A stretch of DNA of 64,000 nucleotides from Bryobacteraceae bacterium (lineage in GTDB: Bacteria > Acidobacteriota > Terriglobia > Bryobacterales > Bryobacteraceae). Made by a program: the position numbers and the translations under genes. The notes under the pieces were generated by a model. That model was not told the DNA's origin, did no database searches, and saw only the letters and a list, made by a program, of their open reading frames with translations. Shown in pieces: positions 38,350 to 46,274 of this stretch; positions within the stretch are counted from its first letter, which is position 1; the number at the start of each line of letters is the position of its first letter. The DNA lies in the NCBI GenBank assembly GCA_019752335.1, contig JAIEMJ010000011.1, positions 186,001-250,000 on the forward strand, written 5' to 3'.

Positions 38350-39564
38350 TTACCAATAACGACGCAAGTCAATCAAGTACATCTGCCGTCCCCCGGCATG
38401 CGGCGAATCAATGCAGACCTTCATCCCGTCGGGCGAAGACCGCGGATGCGTATCGCATCGCCACTCCCCCGTATACTCGGTGGGCGAATGGAAATCGCCC
38501 AACGCGCGCCGCTCGTTCGTTTCCGGGTTGTAGAGATAAACGTGCTGCAAACGGGTGGCATCCGGGTAAGTATCGTTCAGAATCCACTTACCCGGCGCCA
38601 GGTAAGTATTGTGCCCATTCACCGTCATCACGTCCGGCCCGATCGGCGTCACCTGATCGGTTTGATCTTCGTAAAGGTAAAAACGTTGCTTGCCCAACGA
38701 CGGGTGCCAGGCAAACGCCGCGATGTGCTTCGCGTCGCGCCAAATGAAGTGCGACGTCTGCCCGTAAGGATCCAACACATACGGCTGAGTACCGTCGGCG
38801 TTCATCGTGAACAGACGCGTCGCAAAACCTTGCTTCTCCTTGGGCCCCCGCCAGCGATGCAGAAAGATAAAACGGCGATTGTCCGGCGAAATCAGTAAGT
38901 GGTTAAACCAATGCTTGCTCACACTCCACGGTGAGTAACTCCAGTCGCCCTTCGGCTGCGGCACGTCCAGCGCGTCAGCGACAGAAAACAGCAGCTTACT
39001 CTGGCCCGTAGCCAAATCCACCCGCCAGATGCCCGCGTCCTTCGGCGCCGCCTGGTTCACGTTCGGATCCGGCACCCCGGCGTAACCGTAGCCGGGGCGC
39101 GTGTGATTCAAGCGCCGGAAGTCCGTCGTGATCGCCCACGGCGCGCGATTCGCCAAAGCGTAAATCGGCGAATCGAGCACGCGCTCCCGGCCCGTACCCA
39201 CGTGATGAATCACGCTGACGAAGCGGCCCTCGCGCCGGTCGTTCCAAATCACCTCGTCGCGCGACCCCGGCAGCCACTGCAGCATGCACCCCTGCTGCCA
39301 GTTCCACGCCCGCGTCGTGCCAAGTTCGCGCCACTTGTCCTGCCGCTCCGTGTCGATCACGCCCACCCGGATCGTGTCCTCGGCCCGCGGGGACCGGTGT
39401 TCGAAATCCACCTCCATACCCAGGCAATGGCGCGATGTGGAGTCGAATTGCAGTTTGTCGTAATAGCCGAACCAGTGAAACTTGGGGCCGCGCGTAATCG
39501 GCCTGACGGGCGGCAAGGCCTTTCCCTGCAACATCAGGCTGGCTAAAAGCTCTCGTCGGCGCAT
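38350..39564 (-). CDS. Secreted TolB/oligogalacturonide-lyase-like beta-propeller protein
   Basis: The 404-aa protein begins MRRRELLASLMLQGKALPP, a short Tat-like leader. The start at 39564 is supported by TACAAT ending 5 bases upstream. It has propeller segments with GPKFHWFGYYDKLQFD, LLISPDNRRFIFLHRW and HPRSSPDGMKVCIDSPHAGGRQMYLIDL. The layout resembles oligogalacturonide-lyase-type seven-bladed propellers, but catalytic residues were not assigned. It ends 51 bases from the 138-bp inverted repeat. Function uncertain; likely extracytoplasmic glycan processing. Confidence 0.75.
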   Translation of the reverse strand: MRRRELLASLMLQGKALPPVRPITRGPKFHWFGYYDKLQFDSTSRHCLGMEVDFEHRSPRAEDTIRVGVIDTERQDKWRELGTTRAWNWQQGCMLQWLPGSRDEVIWNDRREGRFVSVIHHVGTGRERVLDSPIYALANRAPWAITTDFRRLNHTRPGYGYAGVPDPNVNQAAPKDAGIWRVDLATGQSKLLFSVADALDVPQPKGDWSYSPWSVSKHWFNHLLISPDNRRFIFLHRWRGPKEKQGFATRLFTMNADGTQPYVLDPYGQTSHFIWRDAKHIAAFAWHPSLGKQRFYLYEDQTDQVTPIGPDVMTVNGHNTYLAPGKWILNDTYPDATRLQHVYLYNPETNERRALGDFHSPTEYTGEWRCDTHPRSSPDGMKVCIDSPHAGGRQMYLIDLRRYW

Positions 39565-39569
39565 GCCTG

Positions 39570-39575
39570 ATTGTA
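39570..39575 (-). promoter_or_regulatory. -10 hexamer TACAAT
   Basis: TACAAT on the minus strand ends 5 bases before the ATG at 39564. Confidence 0.5.
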
Positions 39576-39580
39576 GCCGC

Positions 39581-39600
39581 TTCCCCGCCATTGCGGGGGA
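39581..39600. repeat. Hairpin upstream of RAYT 1
   Basis: TTCCCCGC and GCGGGGGA pair over 8 bp (one G-T wobble) around the tetraloop CATT. It lies 22 bases before the conserved RAYT leader and with the 40353 hairpin brackets the transposase. Confidence 0.5.
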
Positions 39601-39622
39601 TCACCCCACATCAGCGACTTAG

Positions 39623-39664
39623 AAATAAATGAGAATAATCGCCCCGAAATCTCACTATTCAGTG
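39623..39664 (+). promoter_or_regulatory. Conserved RAYT leader, copy 1
   Basis: AAATAAATGAGAAT (39623-39636), 16 unconserved bases, then CACTATTCAGTG (39653-39664) touching the ATG of RAYT 1. The same two blocks with the same spacing precede RAYT 2. CACT and AGTG in the second block can pair. Confidence 0.75.
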
Positions 39665-40342
39665 ATGCCTCGCAAAGCTCGTTTCGCCCCACCCGGCTAC
39701 TGGATGCACATTGTCCAGCGCGGTCACCAACAGCAGCCGATCTTCCGCCACGACGATGACCGGTTAGCCTACCTCAACCTGCTCTCCAGCTACGCGCGGG
39801 ATCGCCAGGTTCAAATCCTCGGCTACACCCTCATGCCGGACCACGTCCACCTTGTCGCGCTTGGCAAGTACCCTCACGCCATCGCCGAATGGATGCGTTG
39901 CCTAAACGGCCATTACGGCCAGCGGCTCCAAGGCAAGCTCGGCCACGCCGGCCGCTTCTGGCAGGAGCGCTTCTTTTCCTGCACCGTGGACGAACGCCAC
40001 CTCCGTTCCGTTCTTCGCTACGTCGAGCAGAACCCCGTCCGCGCCGGACTACTGGCTGACGCCGTGCAATACCCCTGGTCCTCCGCGGCGGCACACACCG
40101 GACCGCTACGTTGCCCGGGCCTGCTCAACCATGACGAGTTCGCGCGCCGCTTCACCCCCAGCGAATGGCGACTGGCGCTGATGTATCCGCAGGCGAAGCA
40201 CGAAGTGGAAGCCATCCAGCAAGCCACCCGCAGCGGTATGCCGCTCGGTACGCCGGAATTCCTGGCCCACCTCGAAGCGGAGTTCGACGTCGTCCTGCCC
40301 CGGCAGCCCTCGCCAGCGCGCGCCAGGGCCGCCAGCGCCTAG
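39665..40342 (+). CDS. REP-associated tyrosine transposase (RAYT 1), Y1_Tnp family
   Basis: The 225-aa protein begins MPRKARFAPPGYWMHIVQRG. It has the HUH motif DHVHLVAL (His60, His62) and the catalytic Tyr in LRYVEQNPVRAGLL (about Tyr119), followed by WSSAAAHTG, which is characteristic of RAYTs. These are single-copy, domesticated relatives of IS200/IS605 transposases that act on REP hairpins. The start at 39665 fits the family N-terminus and immediately follows the conserved leader. A REP-like hairpin begins 11 bases after its stop codon. Confidence 0.93.
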   Translation: MPRKARFAPPGYWMHIVQRGHQQQPIFRHDDDRLAYLNLLSSYARDRQVQILGYTLMPDHVHLVALGKYPHAIAEWMRCLNGHYGQRLQGKLGHAGRFWQERFFSCTVDERHLRSVLRYVEQNPVRAGLLADAVQYPWSSAAAHTGPLRCPGLLNHDEFARRFTPSEWRLALMYPQAKHEVEAIQQATRSGMPLGTPEFLAHLEAEFDVVLPRQPSPARARAASA

Positions 40343-40352
40343 AACGCTCGTA

Positions 40353-40374
40353 GGACCGGCCTCCCGGCCTGTCC
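40353..40374. repeat. REP-like hairpin downstream of RAYT 1
   Basis: A 22-base palindrome with 9-base arms GGACCGGCC and GGCCTGTCC (one mismatch) and loop TCCC, preceded by TA. Same length and layout as the hairpins at 44821 and 44860. A direct repeat AGAACGCT flanks it (40341-40348 and 40381-40388). Confidence 0.75.
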
Positions 40375-40411
40375 AAATGCAGAACGCTGGTCCAACCTTT
40401 TCAACGGCCTC

Positions 40412-43400
40412 CTAGAAGTTATACTTCTGGCCAAACTGAATCCGCCGAGGGTCGTCGGCCACCGTAATACGTCCCACCGCCGGCGTACCCAGCCCCGCCG
40501 CCGGTGGGCCGAAGTTCGCGTGGTTCAAAAAGTTGAAGCTCTCAAAGCGGAACTGGAGCGCATGGCCTTCAAACGGCATCCGGAACGTGCGCGAGATCAT
40601 CATGTCGATATTCTGACGCCCCGGCCCGACAATCACGTTGCGGCCGACATTCGCGATCGTCCCCGGCGCCGCGGGCACCGCAAACGTCGTATCGAACCAG
40701 CGGTCAATCGTCCGCTCACTGCTGGGCAAGTTCGGATTCCGCACCCAGTCGCCGCGCACCGCGCCACCCAGGTTCTGATTGTTCACGTTGATCGAATTCG
40801 AAATCGGCAGCCCGGTGAGCAGCGAAACGATGCCGCCAATCTGCCAACCGCCGAGTACCCATTTGGCCGGTCCCGTCATTTTGCCGGTCGGCACTTCATA
40901 AACTCCGGAGAACGCGTAGCCAAACTTGCGATTCAACGTCGAAAGTCCGCGTTCCCGGCGTAAGTCATAGGGCGTCACCGCCCCAGGGCTGCCGTCGAGC
41001 AAGTCCTCATTACCGTAGTCCATATTGCGGGACCAGGTAAACGAGCTCAAGAAAGTAAAGCCCTTCGAAAAACGCTTCTCCGCCTTCACCGTCAACGCGT
41101 GATAGACGGAATTCAGCGAGTTTTCGTGATAATTCACGGCGCTAAACTGCGGCAGGATTAGCCGCTGATTAGCGGCCACCGTCGCCGACGGAGTCATCGG
41201 CTGGTTGATGTTTCGCACGGCGTGTAAGTTGGTGCCCTTCGTTCCCTGATACCCAATCGTCACTAGCGTATCCAGCGGCAGCGTCCGCTGCACGTCGAAG
41301 AACCACTGCGACGCATACAGCGTACCGCGGAAGTCCGGAAACACGAAGACGCTGGCGCCGCGCAGAAGTTGCGTATTGCTGAACGCCGGGAAGCCATCGC
41401 GCACAAAAACATTGGCCTGCTCGAAATTCGTTTGGATCGCAATATCCTGCGAACGCGGCGGACCGGAGCGGAAGTTCGCGCCTTCCGTGGAAAGGCTATT
41501 CGGCTCGCCGTAAAATATGCCCGCGCCCGAGCGAATCACCGTCTTTGCGTTCAGTTGATACGCCAAGCCCAGCCGCGGCGCAAAGTTATTGCGGTCGTTC
41601 TTGCAACCGCAGTCCGAGTCGCTGGTGGGGAAGACGATGCGGTCTTCCGCCAACAAGTACTTGCCCACCGACTGCTTCGCCGCATTCGGGAACGTGCCCT
41701 TCGGGAACATCTCCCAACGCACACCCACATTCAGTGTCAAGCGCGAATTCACCTTCCAATCGTCCTGCACAAACGCTCCGTAGTAGGGCGCAACAATATT
41801 CTCTCCTTGATTGTTGCCATAATTGCCGCCCGACACCCATCCCAGCACCATGTCGGCTAACCCGTTGCCGGAACTGCCGCGGCTCGCGCCGTTATTCGGC
41901 TGCTGCGAAGTAAATTGGCCACTAAAGGAAAACTGTCCCCGCCGGTAGCGCGCGGCGTTACGGAATACGTTCAGCCGGCGATATTCGCCGCCGAATTTCA
42001 CCGTGTGTTTGCCCTTCTGCCACAGCATCGAATTCGTAATCATCCGATTATCGAGATTATTGAAATTTGGCCAAAACGCCCGCGGACCCAACTCCGTGAA
42101 ACCAGCCGGGCTGAACAAACTAAACCCGTAATCTTGGCCGTCGCCAAAACTATCGCCCGGCGCATTCTTGATCCCGAATTTCTTATTCAGGTTCTCCGTA
42201 AACGGAATATCGAACTTCGTGTCGAATTTCGAATAGCCGAAACGCAACTCGTTGAACAGCGTAGTACCCAAGGTGCTGGAAAGGCTCGCGACCAGGTTGT
42301 GCCCCTGTAAGTCGACGGTCTGTCCGCCCCCACCCGTCGCCGGCGCCGGCAGTGAGCCATTTTCGTTGCGGAACTGATCGCGGCGCGAGTACCGCGCAAA
42401 GAAACGCTGATTGGCGGAGAAGTTATGGTCGCCGCGGAAATCGTATTGGTTGGCGTTGTCGGAATCTTTCGGTGAATAGAAGTAATTATTCGGCGCGTTA
42501 TCCAACCCCGCGACATTTGAAGCGGGCGATAGATTCAGAATCTGCCGCGCCACCGGATCCACCCGCGACTCCGGAATCCGATTGCCGGCAAAAGGCAGCC
42601 GCGTAGCGGCGGCGCCCGTGCCCGCCAGCGTCAGCGGGTCGAAGATGTTGCGCCGCACGGCGGGCTGCGCCGAGAAGTCCAGCCGCTCCACGATGTCGCG
42701 GCTGGCCACGGAACTCGTGAAGGTCTGCCCCCGCCGGATCCGCGTGCCCTGATAGCTACCAAAGAAGAAGGTCCGGTTCTTGATGATCCGCCCGCCCAAC
42801 GTCGCACCAAATTGATTCTGCTGGTAAAGCGGCTTCTTCGCCCCATTCCGATTCGCAAAGAAATTGGCGGCGTCCAGCTTCTGGTTGCGCAGAAATTCAT
42901 AGGCCGACCCATGCAGTTCATTGGTCCCGCTCTTCGTATTCACCAGAATCTTCGCCCCGGCGCGATAGCCATATTCCGCGCTCATGTTGTTCGTCACCAC
43001 TTTAAATTCGCTCACCGCGTCCACCGGCGGCTTCACCGCCTGCGCCTCAAAGCCCAGCGGACCGCCCGACGTCCGCGAGCTATTGTCGTTGCCATCCAGC
43101 AGGACGTTGTTCTGCGCGATCTGCATCCCCACGGCTGCAAACGCGCCTTCGTCACGCGCCCGGCTGCCCGCTCCCGCGCCGCCGCCCGGCAGCACGCCGG
43201 CCGTAAACTGCGCCAATTGCAGATAATTCCGGCCGTTCAGCGGCATTTCCAGAATGCGCTTGCCATCGATCACCTGGCCCACCTCCGTGGTCTCCGTGTT
43301 CAACAGCACCGCCGACGCCGACACTTCCACCGCTTCCACCACGGTGCCGGGCTTCAGCGCGAAGTCCAACCGCGCGGTCTGGCCCACTTCGAGCTGTAAG

Positions 43401-43669
43401 CCTTTCAGCGCCTGCGTGGCGAACCCGGTAGCCTGGCATTCCACCTGATAGCGGCCCGCGTTCAACGACGGCGCGATGTACAGGCCCTGTGCATTGGTGG
43501 TGTAGCGCGTCGTCACCCCGGTACTCGTGTTGCTGATGACCACCGTCGCGTTCACCAGCACGGCGCCGGAGCCGTCCGTCACCGTCCCCTGAATTCCGGC
43601 GTTCTGCGCCAGCAATCCACTCGAGAGCAAAAACCAAAGTCCTAACCCATGTATACGCAACATCTTCAT
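40412..43669 (-). CDS. Oar-like TonB-dependent outer-membrane receptor (third)
   Basis: The 1085-aa protein has a signal peptide (MKMLRIHGLGLWFLLSSGLLAQ) and a regulatory-like domain (NAGIQGTVTDGSGAVLVNATVVISNTSTG). The plug has MPLNGRNYLQLAQFTAGVLPGG and NVLLDGNDNSS, and the long barrel ends in RRIQFGQKYNF. Two close ATG codons (43669, 43663) could start it; a CATGAT hexamer lies 7 bases before the first. It is divergent from the secreted protein at 43790 and has no obvious periplasmic partner gene, so the ligand cannot be guessed. Confidence 0.93.
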   Translation of the reverse strand: MKMLRIHGLGLWFLLSSGLLAQNAGIQGTVTDGSGAVLVNATVVISNTSTGVTTRYTTNAQGLYIAPSLNAGRYQVECQATGFATQALKGLQLEVGQTARLDFALKPGTVVEAVEVSASAVLLNTETTEVGQVIDGKRILEMPLNGRNYLQLAQFTAGVLPGGGAGAGSRARDEGAFAAVGMQIAQNNVLLDGNDNSSRTSGGPLGFEAQAVKPPVDAVSEFKVVTNNMSAEYGYRAGAKILVNTKSGTNELHGSAYEFLRNQKLDAANFFANRNGAKKPLYQQNQFGATLGGRIIKNRTFFFGSYQGTRIRRGQTFTSSVASRDIVERLDFSAQPAVRRNIFDPLTLAGTGAAATRLPFAGNRIPESRVDPVARQILNLSPASNVAGLDNAPNNYFYSPKDSDNANQYDFRGDHNFSANQRFFARYSRRDQFRNENGSLPAPATGGGGQTVDLQGHNLVASLSSTLGTTLFNELRFGYSKFDTKFDIPFTENLNKKFGIKNAPGDSFGDGQDYGFSLFSPAGFTELGPRAFWPNFNNLDNRMITNSMLWQKGKHTVKFGGEYRRLNVFRNAARYRRGQFSFSGQFTSQQPNNGASRGSSGNGLADMVLGWVSGGNYGNNQGENIVAPYYGAFVQDDWKVNSRLTLNVGVRWEMFPKGTFPNAAKQSVGKYLLAEDRIVFPTSDSDCGCKNDRNNFAPRLGLAYQLNAKTVIRSGAGIFYGEPNSLSTEGANFRSGPPRSQDIAIQTNFEQANVFVRDGFPAFSNTQLLRGASVFVFPDFRGTLYASQWFFDVQRTLPLDTLVTIGYQGTKGTNLHAVRNINQPMTPSATVAANQRLILPQFSAVNYHENSLNSVYHALTVKAEKRFSKGFTFLSSFTWSRNMDYGNEDLLDGSPGAVTPYDLRRERGLSTLNRKFGYAFSGVYEVPTGKMTGPAKWVLGGWQIGGIVSLLTGLPISNSINVNNQNLGGAVRGDWVRNPNLPSSERTIDRWFDTTFAVPAAPGTIANVGRNVIVGPGRQNIDMMISRTFRMPFEGHALQFRFESFNFLNHANFGPPAAGLGTPAVGRITVADDPRRIQFGQKYNF

Positions 43670-43710
43670 AGCTGTATCATGAATTTACTTCTTGCGGGGA
43701 AACTCTGGCC

Positions 43711-43716
43711 TAGAAT
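43711..43716 (+). promoter_or_regulatory. -10 hexamer TAGAAT of the DUF4412-like gene
   Basis: TAGAAT precedes a conventional leader of about 65 bases that contains AAGGAGG (43773-43779), in contrast to the leaderless promoters elsewhere in the window. Confidence 0.4.
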
Positions 43717-43789
43717 ACCGTTAGAGAAGCAGGGGCCCGGCGCCGTACGGGTTCCACGTTCGTCAACCACTCAAGGAGGAGTGCTTCCC

Positions 43790-44821
43790 ATGCTTTTGAA
43801 ACCCCTCGCCACCGCCGTGCTCGCCTGCACGCCACTGTGTATGCCCTTGCACGCTGACTTCAGCTACCAGGAAACCACCAAGATCACCGGAGGCAGCCTC
43901 ACCAGGATGATGCGTTTCATCCCCGGCGCCGGCAAGGCCCTCGACGCGAAGTCCAGCGCCGTCTACCTCAAGGGTGACCGCCTGGTCCACGCCTTCCCCG
44001 ACACCATGTCCATCATTGACCTCTCCGCCGAAACCATCACCGAGGTCAATCTCGAAAAGAAGACCTACGCCACCATCACTTTTACCGAAATGCGCGAAGC
44101 CATGGAGAGAATGGCCGCGAAGATGCAAGAAGCGATGAGCAAGCAGAAGAGCGAACCCATGCCGCAAATGGACCTGCAGGTCTCCGTCAAGCGCACCGGG
44201 CAAACCCGCTCCATCAGCGGCCTCGACACCCGCGAGTACCTCATGCAACTCGCCATGTCCGCGCAAGCGCAACCCGGCGCCCCGCCCGCCGGCGTCTCCG
44301 ACATGGAGATGGCCATGTGGATGACCACCAAGATTCCGGGTTACGACGAAGTGCAAGCCTTCCACCTGCGCATGGCCCAGAAGATGAAATTCACCCCGAA
44401 CCTGAACCCGCTCCTCATGCAGCAACGCGGCTCCGCCGACGGCCTCAAGAAAATGGCCGAAGAGATGGCCAAGCTCGACGGCACCCCCGTCATGACCGTC
44501 ACCCGCATCAAGGGCACCGGCGCGATGCCGGGCATGCCCCCCGGGAACGCCAGCGCGCAGGATAACAGCGACAAGTCGCCCCGTCTCGGCGGCGGACTAG
44601 CCGGCTTAGCCGCCGGCGGCATCATGGGTGGTCTGCGCCGCAAGAACAAAGACGCCCCTAAGCCCGAAGACTCCGCCGCCCCCGCCGCCAAGACCGCCGA
44701 CGACGTCATGATAGAAATGCAAACCGAATCCTCCAATTTTTCCAACGCCCCCATCGACGCCTCCAAGCTAAGCGTCCCCGCCGGCTTCCAAGCCGTAGAC
44801 CACCCCATGAAAAAACGGTAG
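43790..44821 (+). CDS. Secreted protein, DUF4412-like, with glycine-zipper segment
   Basis: The 343-aa protein starts at ATG 43790, 10 bases after a perfect AAGGAGG; the longer upstream frame is rejected. It has a signal peptide (LLKPLATAVLACTPLCMPLHA) and a strand-rich domain (FSYQETTKITGGSLTRMMRF, SSAVYLKGDRLVH, TEVNLEKKTYATITF). Met-rich helices (MREAMERMAAKMQEAM) and a Gly zipper (GGGLAGLAAGGIMGGL, about 265-280) follow. The fold resembles LolA/DUF4412-like proteins. Its stop codon is the first part of a REP-like hairpin that may also end transcription. Confidence 0.75.
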   Translation: MLLKPLATAVLACTPLCMPLHADFSYQETTKITGGSLTRMMRFIPGAGKALDAKSSAVYLKGDRLVHAFPDTMSIIDLSAETITEVNLEKKTYATITFTEMREAMERMAAKMQEAMSKQKSEPMPQMDLQVSVKRTGQTRSISGLDTREYLMQLAMSAQAQPGAPPAGVSDMEMAMWMTTKIPGYDEVQAFHLRMAQKMKFTPNLNPLLMQQRGSADGLKKMAEEMAKLDGTPVMTVTRIKGTGAMPGMPPGNASAQDNSDKSPRLGGGLAGLAAGGIMGGLRRKNKDAPKPEDSAAPAAKTADDVMIEMQTESSNFSNAPIDASKLSVPAGFQAVDHPMKKR

Positions 44822-44842
44822 GGCGGGCCCCCCGGCCCGCCC
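44821..44842. repeat. REP-like hairpin 1 upstream of RAYT 2
   Basis: A 22-base perfect palindrome with 9-base arms GGGCGGGCC and GGCCCGCCC and loop CCCC. Its first base is the last base of the preceding TAG stop. Same TA-start and 9-4-9 layout as 40353. Confidence 0.8.
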
Positions 44843-44859
44843 ACTAACGCTTTGTGATA

Positions 44860-44881
44860 GGACGGGCCCCCCGCTCCGTCC
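44860..44881. repeat. REP-like hairpin 2 upstream of RAYT 2
   Basis: A 22-base imperfect palindrome with arms GGACGGGCC and GCTCCGTCC and loop CCCC, preceded by TA. It lies 17 bases after hairpin 1 in tandem, the arrangement known from BIMEs. Confidence 0.65.
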
Positions 44882-45130
44882 GCTTACCAAAGATGAGCAG
44901 CCAGCCGCCACGCAATCCGACTCGAAGAAATCGCAATATCGGCACGTCCGTCCGCGGGCATGGTCGCGATAACCGGCTGGTGATTCCGACGAGGTTTAAC
45001 GCGCCAATCTACCTTTGGCCGGTCCGACGAGCCAATAAGGCATTTACAATGAGTATCTTCGCCGGATTCGATTTACCGCAAAGGGGCATTGGCGGAGGCT
45101 TTGGGGGCGAGCTTTTCACATTTTGTTCGA
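44882..45130. other. Gene-free stretch between REP hairpins and RAYT 2 leader
   Basis: No supported gene; open frames here lack family features. It contains no further palindrome that I could recognise. Confidence 0.5.
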
Positions 45131-45172
45131 AAATAAGTGAGAATTTTCCTGGCGGAAACACACTATTCAGTG
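45131..45172 (+). promoter_or_regulatory. Conserved RAYT leader, copy 2
   Basis: AAATAAGTGAGAAT (45131-45144), 16 unconserved bases, then CACTATTCAGTG (45161-45172), one base before the ATG of RAYT 2. It differs from copy 1 by one base in the two blocks. Confidence 0.75.
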
Positions 45173-45173
45173 G

Positions 45174-45920
45174 ATGGCGACAAAACCCAAGCCGAAGACT
45201 AGGCTCTCCCCTGCCCCGCCCCGGAAGCGCGACTGGGTGATCGGGCGTTGCTATCACGTCTACCAACGCGGATCCCGGAAGCAAGGCGTGTTTGAGACAC
45301 AGGCGCAGTTAGTCCGCTACCTGAACCACTTCGACCGCCTGGCCCGACGTTGCCAGGTTCGCGTACACGCTTTTTGCCTGATGTCGAACCACGTACACTT
45401 TCTCCTGGAGCCAAGAAAAACATGGGGCATCTCGCACCTGATGCAGCAGTTGCAGTCACATTATGCCCGCACCGTCCATCAGGGCATGAAGCTGACCGGC
45501 CATCTGTGGCGTAATCACTTCCACGCCAAGTGCATCAAGGACGATGCGCAGTATCGCGCAACCCTCATCTACATCGAGCAAAATCCAACTGCGGCTGGAA
45601 TCGTCATGCGTGCTCATCGCTACGAGTACTCAAGCGCCCCGGCCCATACCGCCAATCAATCTGACTATCAGCTCAACTACAAGCATCACCGCGCGACGGT
45701 CCAACTCTACCTCGATTACTGGCGCGAGAAATTCCCCGGCCACGCCGACTGGCCCGCGCATCTCCGCAGCCCTCGCGAAGAAGACTTCACCGACATCGAG
45801 CGCGTCTTAGGACCAGATCGCGTGCAGTTGCTAAACCCCATCGCTTTGCCCGAATGTGCGCCGCTCACGAAAGCGGCCGGATCTCAGACGTCCCCGGCCG
45901 CGCCTGCCGACGATTCTTGA
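45174..45920 (+). CDS. REP-associated tyrosine transposase-like protein (RAYT 2)
   Basis: The 248-aa protein has the Y1_Tnp HUH motif SNHVHFLLEP (His73, His75) and the Tyr motif LIYIEQNPTAAGIV (about Tyr133), followed by YEYSSAPAHT. The N-terminus has a basic extension (MATKPKPKTRLSPAPPRKRDW) before the CYHVYQRG strand. It is clearly diverged from RAYT 1 in protein sequence, yet preceded by the same two-block leader. Two tandem REP-like hairpins lie about 300 bases upstream. No terminal inverted repeats were found, consistent with a domesticated RAYT. Confidence 0.9.
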   Translation: MATKPKPKTRLSPAPPRKRDWVIGRCYHVYQRGSRKQGVFETQAQLVRYLNHFDRLARRCQVRVHAFCLMSNHVHFLLEPRKTWGISHLMQQLQSHYARTVHQGMKLTGHLWRNHFHAKCIKDDAQYRATLIYIEQNPTAAGIVMRAHRYEYSSAPAHTANQSDYQLNYKHHRATVQLYLDYWREKFPGHADWPAHLRSPREEDFTDIERVLGPDRVQLLNPIALPECAPLTKAAGSQTSPAAPADDS

Positions 45921-45926
45921 GATGCG

Positions 45927-46274
45927 CTATCGCTTGATGGCCGTCCAAGTGCCTTCGCCCAGGCTCTCCACCACTAACGATCCGCCCATCGACATCGGGT
46001 TCTTGATCTTACCTTTGTAGACGACCTTCACTTTGTCGCCCTGCGGAGACACTTCGAAGCTGAATTCGATCACGTCGCCTTTCACGGTGCCCGTAAGTTC
46101 GGCGTTGCCGAGGGCTCCCGAATAGCTACCCGTCAGCTTCTCGCCGTCCTGTTTCAAGACGAAGCTGGGTGAGCCGGCGCCCGCGTTGGTTTCCACTTGA
46201 GCCTCCCAGTTTCCAGAGACATCGGCGGCAAAAAGACAGCAGGTGAGCAACGACACGGCCAAAATGATTCTCAT
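45927..46274 (-). CDS. Small secreted beta-rich hypothetical protein
   Basis: The 115-aa protein has a signal peptide (MRIILAVSLLTCCLFA) and a compact strand-rich domain: ADVSGNWEAQVETNAG, FVLKQDGEKLTGSYSG, ELTGTVKGDVIEFSFEV, KVKVVYKGKI, EGTWTAIKR. This pattern is common in exported acidobacterial proteins and resembles a lipocalin-like barrel; function unknown. The start at 46274 is preferred because TACGAT ends 7 bases upstream. Confidence 0.75.
   Translation of the reverse strand: MRIILAVSLLTCCLFAADVSGNWEAQVETNAGAGSPSFVLKQDGEKLTGSYSGALGNAELTGTVKGDVIEFSFEVSPQGDKVKVVYKGKIKNPMSMGGSLVVESLGEGTWTAIKR

Follow-up and report, generated by a model that had tools for sequence, protein, structure and literature searches.

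A probable leaderless promoter common to RAYT-type transposases and a small set of DNA uptake and recombination genes in a genus of Bryobacteraceae

A 42-base leader directly precedes two RAYT-type transposase genes in a Bryobacteraceae genome, and we consider it probable that this leader is a promoter for leaderless mRNAs, common to RAYTs and to a small regulon of DNA uptake and recombination. Its two conserved blocks, TGAGA and CACTAT, would be the -35 and -10 boxes of this promoter, 17-18 bases apart. The leaders were identified in a window of 64,000 nucleotides, the whole stretch of DNA that was analysed (contig JAIEMJ010000011.1 of assembly GCA_019752335.1, positions 186,001 to 250,000), and their coordinates are collected in Table 1.

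Table 1. Leaders, proposed promoter boxes and transposase genes, in window coordinates.
Feature	Position	Strand	Basis
Promoter element (leader) of the first RAYT	39623..39664	+	R2 match G000:C6:225623-225663, E 8.8e-9
Proposed -35 box TGAGA, first RAYT	39630..39634	+	35 bases before the start codon; sequence and comparison with RAYTs of other bacteria
Proposed -10 box CACTAT, first RAYT	39653..39658	+	12 to 7 bases before the start codon; sequence
First Y1/HUH transposase, RAYT type, 225 aa	39665..40342	+	PF01797 E 2.5e-16; HVH and YVEQNP motifs
Promoter element (leader) of the second RAYT	45131..45172	+	R2 match G000:C6:231129-231171, E 4e-10
Proposed -35 box TGAGA, second RAYT	45138..45142	+	Sequence and comparison with RAYTs of other bacteria
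Proposed -10 box CACTAT, second RAYT	45161..45166	+	Sequence
Second Y1/HUH transposase, RAYT type, 248 aa	45174..45920	+	PF01797 E 2e-14; HVH and YIEQNP motifs

An earlier note on this DNA had placed the two leaders immediately ahead of strongly diverged RAYT genes and had described them as conserved beyond background, and all of this is borne out. The first leader abuts its ATG (39665) and the second stops one base short of its own (45174); 32 of their 42 bases are identical. The flanks match far less in ungapped comparison (46/200 bases upstream, 19/60 over the first coding bases), so the conservation is sharply bounded. The two proteins are 34% identical over 137 residues. Both exceed the cut-off of the Y1_Tnp model (PF01797), and the motif columns H, H, Y, E, N and P are invariant in an alignment of six Y1 proteins. 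Both miss the 80-bit cut-off of the NCBIfam model REP_Tyr_transpos (NF047646), with 68.1 and 70.6 bits, and we call them RAYT-type, not certified as REP-associated. Between the two blocks, 16 unconserved bases had been reported: the spacing is indeed nearly fixed, but the bases are not free, with preferred T/A, C/G and AAA columns in the middle of the element. Aligned over 44 columns, 35 copies show AAAATA ahead of TGAGAA; at the -10 block, 34 of them have CACTA or CACTT and one has GACT.

To count copies, we used both a pattern and sequence models. The 7.2-Mb genome contains three exact matches to the pattern TGAGAATN{10,24}CACTATTCAGTG, all upstream of RAYT starts (the third ahead of another RAYT, on contig C10), and none to the reversed control. 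A sequence-only model made from ten leaders gave 36 genome matches at E<=10. Model R2, also restricted to sequence, comprises 35 copies from two species of the genus; 45 loci were read for its training, 39 of them matched the pattern and 35 were used, two off-site matches being left out together with L132 and L166, in which the spacer is one base shorter or longer and which show that the spacing is not quite universal. R2 finds 39 sites in this genome (G000, 7.2 Mb) and 32 in the second species (G001) at E<=5, and 32 and 20 sites, respectively, at E<=0.01. Judged by eye, the leader is present before 11 of the 20 genes with a Y1_Tnp match (PF01797) in this genome and absent from 8, one more being cut by a contig end; R2 recovered all eleven. 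These account, with five truncated Y1 copies and two small genes that are Y1-like by eye only (a Pfam match is absent), for the 18 transposase-linked sites among the 32. Truncated or broken transposase copies (L118, L120, L132, L168 and L169) still carry the leader, some with one or two changes. No transposase gene adjoins the other 14 sites, and at one of these there is no gene at all. The leader is real, but the restriction to RAYT genes that the note had implied is wrong; nor is the element frequent at random sites of this genome. Two matches in CHAT-protein genes (L172 and L185) were set aside as likely false, as they fall inside an open coding frame (by eye). L119 (G000:C45:70-114), near a contig end, has the element immediately ahead of a fragment with an FGE-sulfatase domain, where the only nearby start is TTG; this may reflect a rearrangement.

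The position of the element relative to start codons has the geometry of a promoter. With the start codon taken as +1, TGAGA starts near -35 and CACTAT near -12, with 17-18 bases between the boxes. The start codon follows the CACT block (CGCT in one case) by 7-11 bases at 23 of the 32 sites and by 15-17 bases at four, so that 27 of the 32 copies are within 17 bases of a start codon. Leaderless promoters of the sigma-70 type have -35 and -10 boxes 16-18 bases apart, the latter some 12 bases ahead of the start codon; the element shares this geometry but has CACTAT in the place of TANNNT. TANNNT about 12 bases before the start is the leaderless signal given in the accessible part of one survey (PMC3160421).

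RAYTs of other bacteria carry canonical boxes at the equivalent place. The comparison set consisted of the best 80 of 563 loci from a protein alignment search covering many phyla: 15 were acidobacterial and 55 were others (two of them without a phylum in the title), five Aminicenantes/Holophagales loci were kept apart from both groups, and L079, L087, L092, L099 and L062 were dropped (start codon absent or upstream DNA too short). Many RAYTs of other phyla show TTGACA-N17-TATAAT ending 6 bases before the ATG. At least 9 of the 12 bases of TTGACA/TATAAT were found in the leaderless position in 24 of the 55 non-acidobacterial RAYTs, against 0/220 in control windows shifted 15-30 bases further upstream, and the best match peaks 6 bases before the ATG (20/55). 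Conversely, TGAGA/CACTA was matched at 8 of 10 bases or better by 12/15 acidobacterial RAYTs versus 0/55 of the others. Because canonical boxes occupy the leaderless position before other RAYTs, leaderless transcription of RAYTs seems widespread, the acidobacterial boxes seemingly being of another class. Hand-picked site lists served to show the consensus and not as a test. In many RAYT loci of other phyla (L024-L103), we also saw by eye sequences of the GGGGACAG or AGGGACAG type about 20-50 bases upstream of the start, which resemble the GGGGWSAS TIR motif described in the accessible text of PMC3733652.

Unrelated genes carry the same element. Counting weak sites, ten non-transposase genes have it in both species: comM, yraN, recA, comEC, a glycosyltransferase, a TPR protein, a PEP-CTERM-like protein (by eye) and three uncharacterised proteins. 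The orthologues in these pairs are 50-93% identical and keep the element at an equal or nearly equal distance. Domain matches identify comM/YifB (PF01078, PF13541, PF13335), yraN (PF02021) and recA (PF00154; site E 0.0078 and 0.018 in the two species), and the glycosyltransferase is NfrB-like (it passes the cut-off of NCBIfam PRK14716.1-3 but not that of the NfrB model). The comEC site is weak in this genome (E 0.88; GGAGA for TGAGA) and strong in the second species (E 2.3e-8), while dprA (PF02481) has a weaker site in this genome (E 0.017) and no match in the G001 assembly. The site is shared by dprA, comEC, comM and recA, all four in G000 and three in G001. An NHL-repeat protein, a DUF669 protein and several other genes, some with apparent signal peptides, also bear it; several of the gene assignments were made by eye from translations, and start codons are predicted. 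The recA site is 91 bases upstream of the ATG and is followed by a TATACT box, so the element may be a second promoter there. Together with one shared non-coding place, the overlap of ten genes makes an explanation by mobile repeats hard.

Two of these shared places were noted in more detail. At L130 (G000:C15:198227), which belongs to one of the three uncharacterised pairs, the element is about 150 bases upstream of the gene for a conserved 182-aa protein, with a TTGACA-like promoter in between; the protein at L186 (G001:C227:5400) is 81% identical to it, and the G001 form has no Pfam or NCBIfam match. The sites of this pair have E 2.7e-7 and 0.18, and the protein is a candidate regulator or accessory factor. 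The shared non-coding place consists of L131 (G000:C24:73411-73459) and L187 (G001:C93:15145-15185), both on the minus strand, with element matches of E 2.6e-7 and 0.22. Downstream of these there is no ORF; instead, about 105-112 bases end in a strong terminator-like hairpin with a T-run, and the conserved 5' part of this stretch holds UCCUCCCC, resembling an anti-Shine-Dalgarno sequence. Four loci were compared with Rfam, among them that of the presumed small RNA, and gave no match. L131/L187 is a possible small RNA that could target mRNAs led by a Shine-Dalgarno sequence, not leaderless ones.

Outside the genus, a strict genus model (R1) had no match in 11 genomes from the same family and order, and the wider conclusion therefore rests on a loose pattern derived from the window, not on the model: TGAGA, 17-18 bases, CACTA, and a start codon 5-12 bases after CACT, with a cut-off of 8/10. 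This cut-off is reached by 11 of 32 competence genes (comEC 4/6, comM 3/8, yraN 1/6, dprA 3/12) and by 6 of 20 scorable Y1 genes, versus 0/34 neighbouring ORFs and 3/197 ORFs from 15 stretches of five genomes (Fisher's test against the 197 controls, 2e-8 for the competence genes and 2e-5 for the Y1 genes). By family, all positive competence genes belong to f1 (11/25), with 0/7 in f2 and f3. The first set scored comprised 28 competence genes and 13 of 23 Y1_Tnp genes (11/28 and 6/13 positive); four dprA and seven Y1 genes were added later, none of which reaches 8, several of the seven being short IS200-type genes, a type that is without the pattern outside the genus. One dprA, one yraN, one comEC and two Y1 genes could not be scored because of contig ends, and one more Y1 match had no locus.

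Scrambled boxes served as a further control. Across 183 scrambled versions, a mean of 0.58 of the 28 competence genes (maximum 7, versus 11 with the real boxes) and 0.42 of the 13 Y1 genes (maximum 3, versus 6) reached the cut-off. Varying the spacer over the 28 competence genes gave 11 positives at 17-18 bases, 7 at 19-20, 5 at 21-22 and 4 at 15-16, a blunt optimum that is perhaps due to GAGA runs shifting the match. Read by eye, comEC has the pattern in six of eight genomes, both of this genus included, and ordinary-looking TACAAT/TATACT boxes instead in G002 and G004. When the pattern was searched blind to genes in 12 relatives, 21 matches were obtained versus 10 in the reversed control: six before Y1 genes (three in G001), six before other genes and nine without assignment. 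The six other genes are comEC, comM, yraN, the glycosyltransferase, the NHL protein and one more orthologue; compared with the G000 proteins (yraN outside the comparison), they are 49-71% identical, the last orthologue 29%.

Altogether, the -35/-12 geometry, the canonical TTGACA/TATAAT at the equivalent place elsewhere and the presence of the element before unrelated genes support a shared promoter, one of three options that the earlier note had offered. Transcription would start at or a few bases from the start codon and yield a leaderless mRNA. The same promoter class would drive comEC, comM, dprA, yraN and recA, with functions in DNA uptake and recombination, and the regulon would also include the NfrB-like glycosyltransferase, the TPR protein and several secreted or uncharacterised proteins; it would exist in this genus and, less strictly, in others of the family. 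The usual -10 box has a T at -12 that is missing from CACTAT, so reading the promoter would require either an alternative sigma factor or an activator that assists the main one, and the AAAATA and the T-rich/A-rich spacer added in this genus could provide extra contacts of this regulator. RAYT genes would have joined the regulon, and their transposases would be produced at times when single-stranded DNA, on which Y1/HUH enzymes act, enters the cell or recombines. The sequences themselves show the two-box element, its geometry, the genes that carry it and a position that is kept across species although the surroundings diverge; promoter activity, the transcription start, the regulator, competence as the inducing state and a benefit of the RAYT link we infer. 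More tentatively, and with the balance of judgement against it, Acidobacteria might own a competence regulon defined by leaderless TGAGA-N17/18-CACTAT promoters and a dedicated sigma factor, which divergent, domesticated transposases of single-stranded DNA repeatedly joined and in which they act during transformation, for example by cutting, joining or copying themselves or short repeats on incoming single strands. The host role and timing of RAYTs are questions that a competence link addresses: should RAYTs be co-expressed with comEC, dprA, comM and recA, action on single-stranded DNA during uptake would become the working hypothesis. The element is also a candidate signature of promoters linked to natural competence among Acidobacteria, usable to predict regulon members and to seek the regulator.

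The promoter reading could be right and the inducing state another. It is possible, although we find it rather unlikely, that the regulon responds to DNA damage or single-strand-DNA stress and not to competence: recA has the site in both species, and dprA, comM and yraN would suit DNA recombination as well. However, comEC is the DNA-uptake channel, the glycosyltransferase and the secreted proteins fit a damage response poorly, and neither lexA nor a repair polymerase is among the site-bearing genes read.

It appears improbable that TGAGA/CACTA is no more than the general leaderless promoter in these bacteria, with no regulon behind it. Leaderless genes do average 13.3% in three acidobacterial genomes of one survey (PMC3160421, available part), yet the leaderless signal given there is TANNNT, not CACTAT. 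Moreover, the two RAYTs are the only ones among 50 window genes to score at least 8/10, a score reached by just 3 of the 197 control genes outside the genus, and the whole 7.2 Mb contain only 39 sites at E<=5.

A second option of the earlier note, a translational or autoregulatory RNA element, finds no support, since there is no conserved fold and the transcript is predicted to start at or near the start codon. Under this explanation, the 42 bases would be transcribed from an upstream promoter with GAGAAT as its -10 box, and a fold or a protein would control translation. A promoter-like TTCACA-18-GAGAAT does precede the second RAYT, and at least 5/6 bases of TTGACA occur 16-18 bases before GAGAAT at 3 of 24 genome sites versus 1 of 120 shifted windows (6/24 versus 11/120 at 4/6 or more; the copies are related, not independent). 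There is also a precedent in the ISPpu9 transposase, which is under the control of a 5' UTR structure and small RNAs according to the accessible text of PMC8450116. Against this, 18 of the 24 sites have at most 3/6 TTGACA bases at the required place, RNAalifold found no pair in 10 copies and 0 pairs in 35, and RAYTs of other bacteria have a canonical promoter at this position; we regard such a leader as very doubtful. The inverted repeats AATAAGTG/CACTTATA and TTTT/AAAA, considered as a folding signal, were dropped because RNAalifold paired nothing.

The remaining option, a recognition site of the transposase, is contradicted by genomes that have the element without the enzyme. Y1_Tnp has no match in G003 or G005, in which the loose pattern nonetheless precedes comEC and comM (G003) and comEC, comM, dprA and yraN (G005), and the element is therefore not a transposase site. 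That it is a REP- or TIR-like transposase end, spread before genes by the transposase, is highly improbable: it stands before numerous Y1 genes from divergent groups, truncated Y1 copies retain it and flanking repeats are known for RAYTs (PMC3733652 and PMC6006769, as far as available), but its distance to orthologous genes is the same or nearly the same in two species, and it has no conserved hairpin. Searches of 39300-40700 and 44750-46250 gave no inverted repeat pair of 12 bases or more that encloses either window gene, which leaves no terminal inverted repeats of that length in these stretches of the kind flanking TIRYT/TIRtron genes. The element is also unlike the palindromic, GTAG-tagged REP or BIME repeats with their many intergenic copies: it shows no conserved pairing, and 27 of its 32 copies are within 17 bases of a start codon. 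In four RAYT copies (L006-L009, including the second window RAYT), about 150 bases upstream of the leader are also alike by eye, which looks like common descent of the copies. Some of the four have a hairpin-like TTGGC...GTCCGACG...GCCAA upstream (by eye), and this region is possibly the true end of the element.

A shared leaderless promoter, as preferred here, has partial parallels in known systems. A literature search found no paper on an acidobacterial competence regulon or promoter, which is not proof of absence; among the papers listed for looser terms, none contained the word Acidobacteria, and the listed matches had neither a competence regulon together with a RAYT nor the phrase REP-associated tyrosine transposase. 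The accessible texts on RAYTs and TIRYTs (PMC3733652; PMC6006769; PMC2817692), which describe acidobacterial TIRYTs, make no mention of a shared promoter or a competence link; the words promoter, competence and leaderless are absent from the available part of PMC6006769, and promoter and competence from that of PMC2817692. The window transposases resemble the RAYT/REPtron and TIRYT/TIRtron units of the same three sources in their Y1_Tnp domain and their HUH and Y...NP motifs, and differ from these units, which have flanking repeats, in that no flanking repeat pair was found in the two stretches searched. Like ISPpu9, for which the available text of PMC8450116 reports control through a 5' UTR and two small RNAs, they would be transposases with regulated expression, whereas here there is probably no leader in the mRNA. 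In box positions (-35/-12), spacing (17-18) and a start codon at the expected start site, the element is like the leaderless promoters of the sigma-70 type covered in the accessible part of PMC3160421. It is unlike them in that its -10 box CACTAT has no leading T, its -35 box is TGAGA and only a small gene set carries it. Competence regulons with a dedicated promoter or site include those of pneumococcal ComX and of Sxy/CRP-S. As in these, dprA, comEC, comM and recA would stand under one signal; unlike them, the element has no known sequence relation to their sites, the set includes RAYTs, yraN and an NfrB-like glycosyltransferase, and most of the genes look leaderless.
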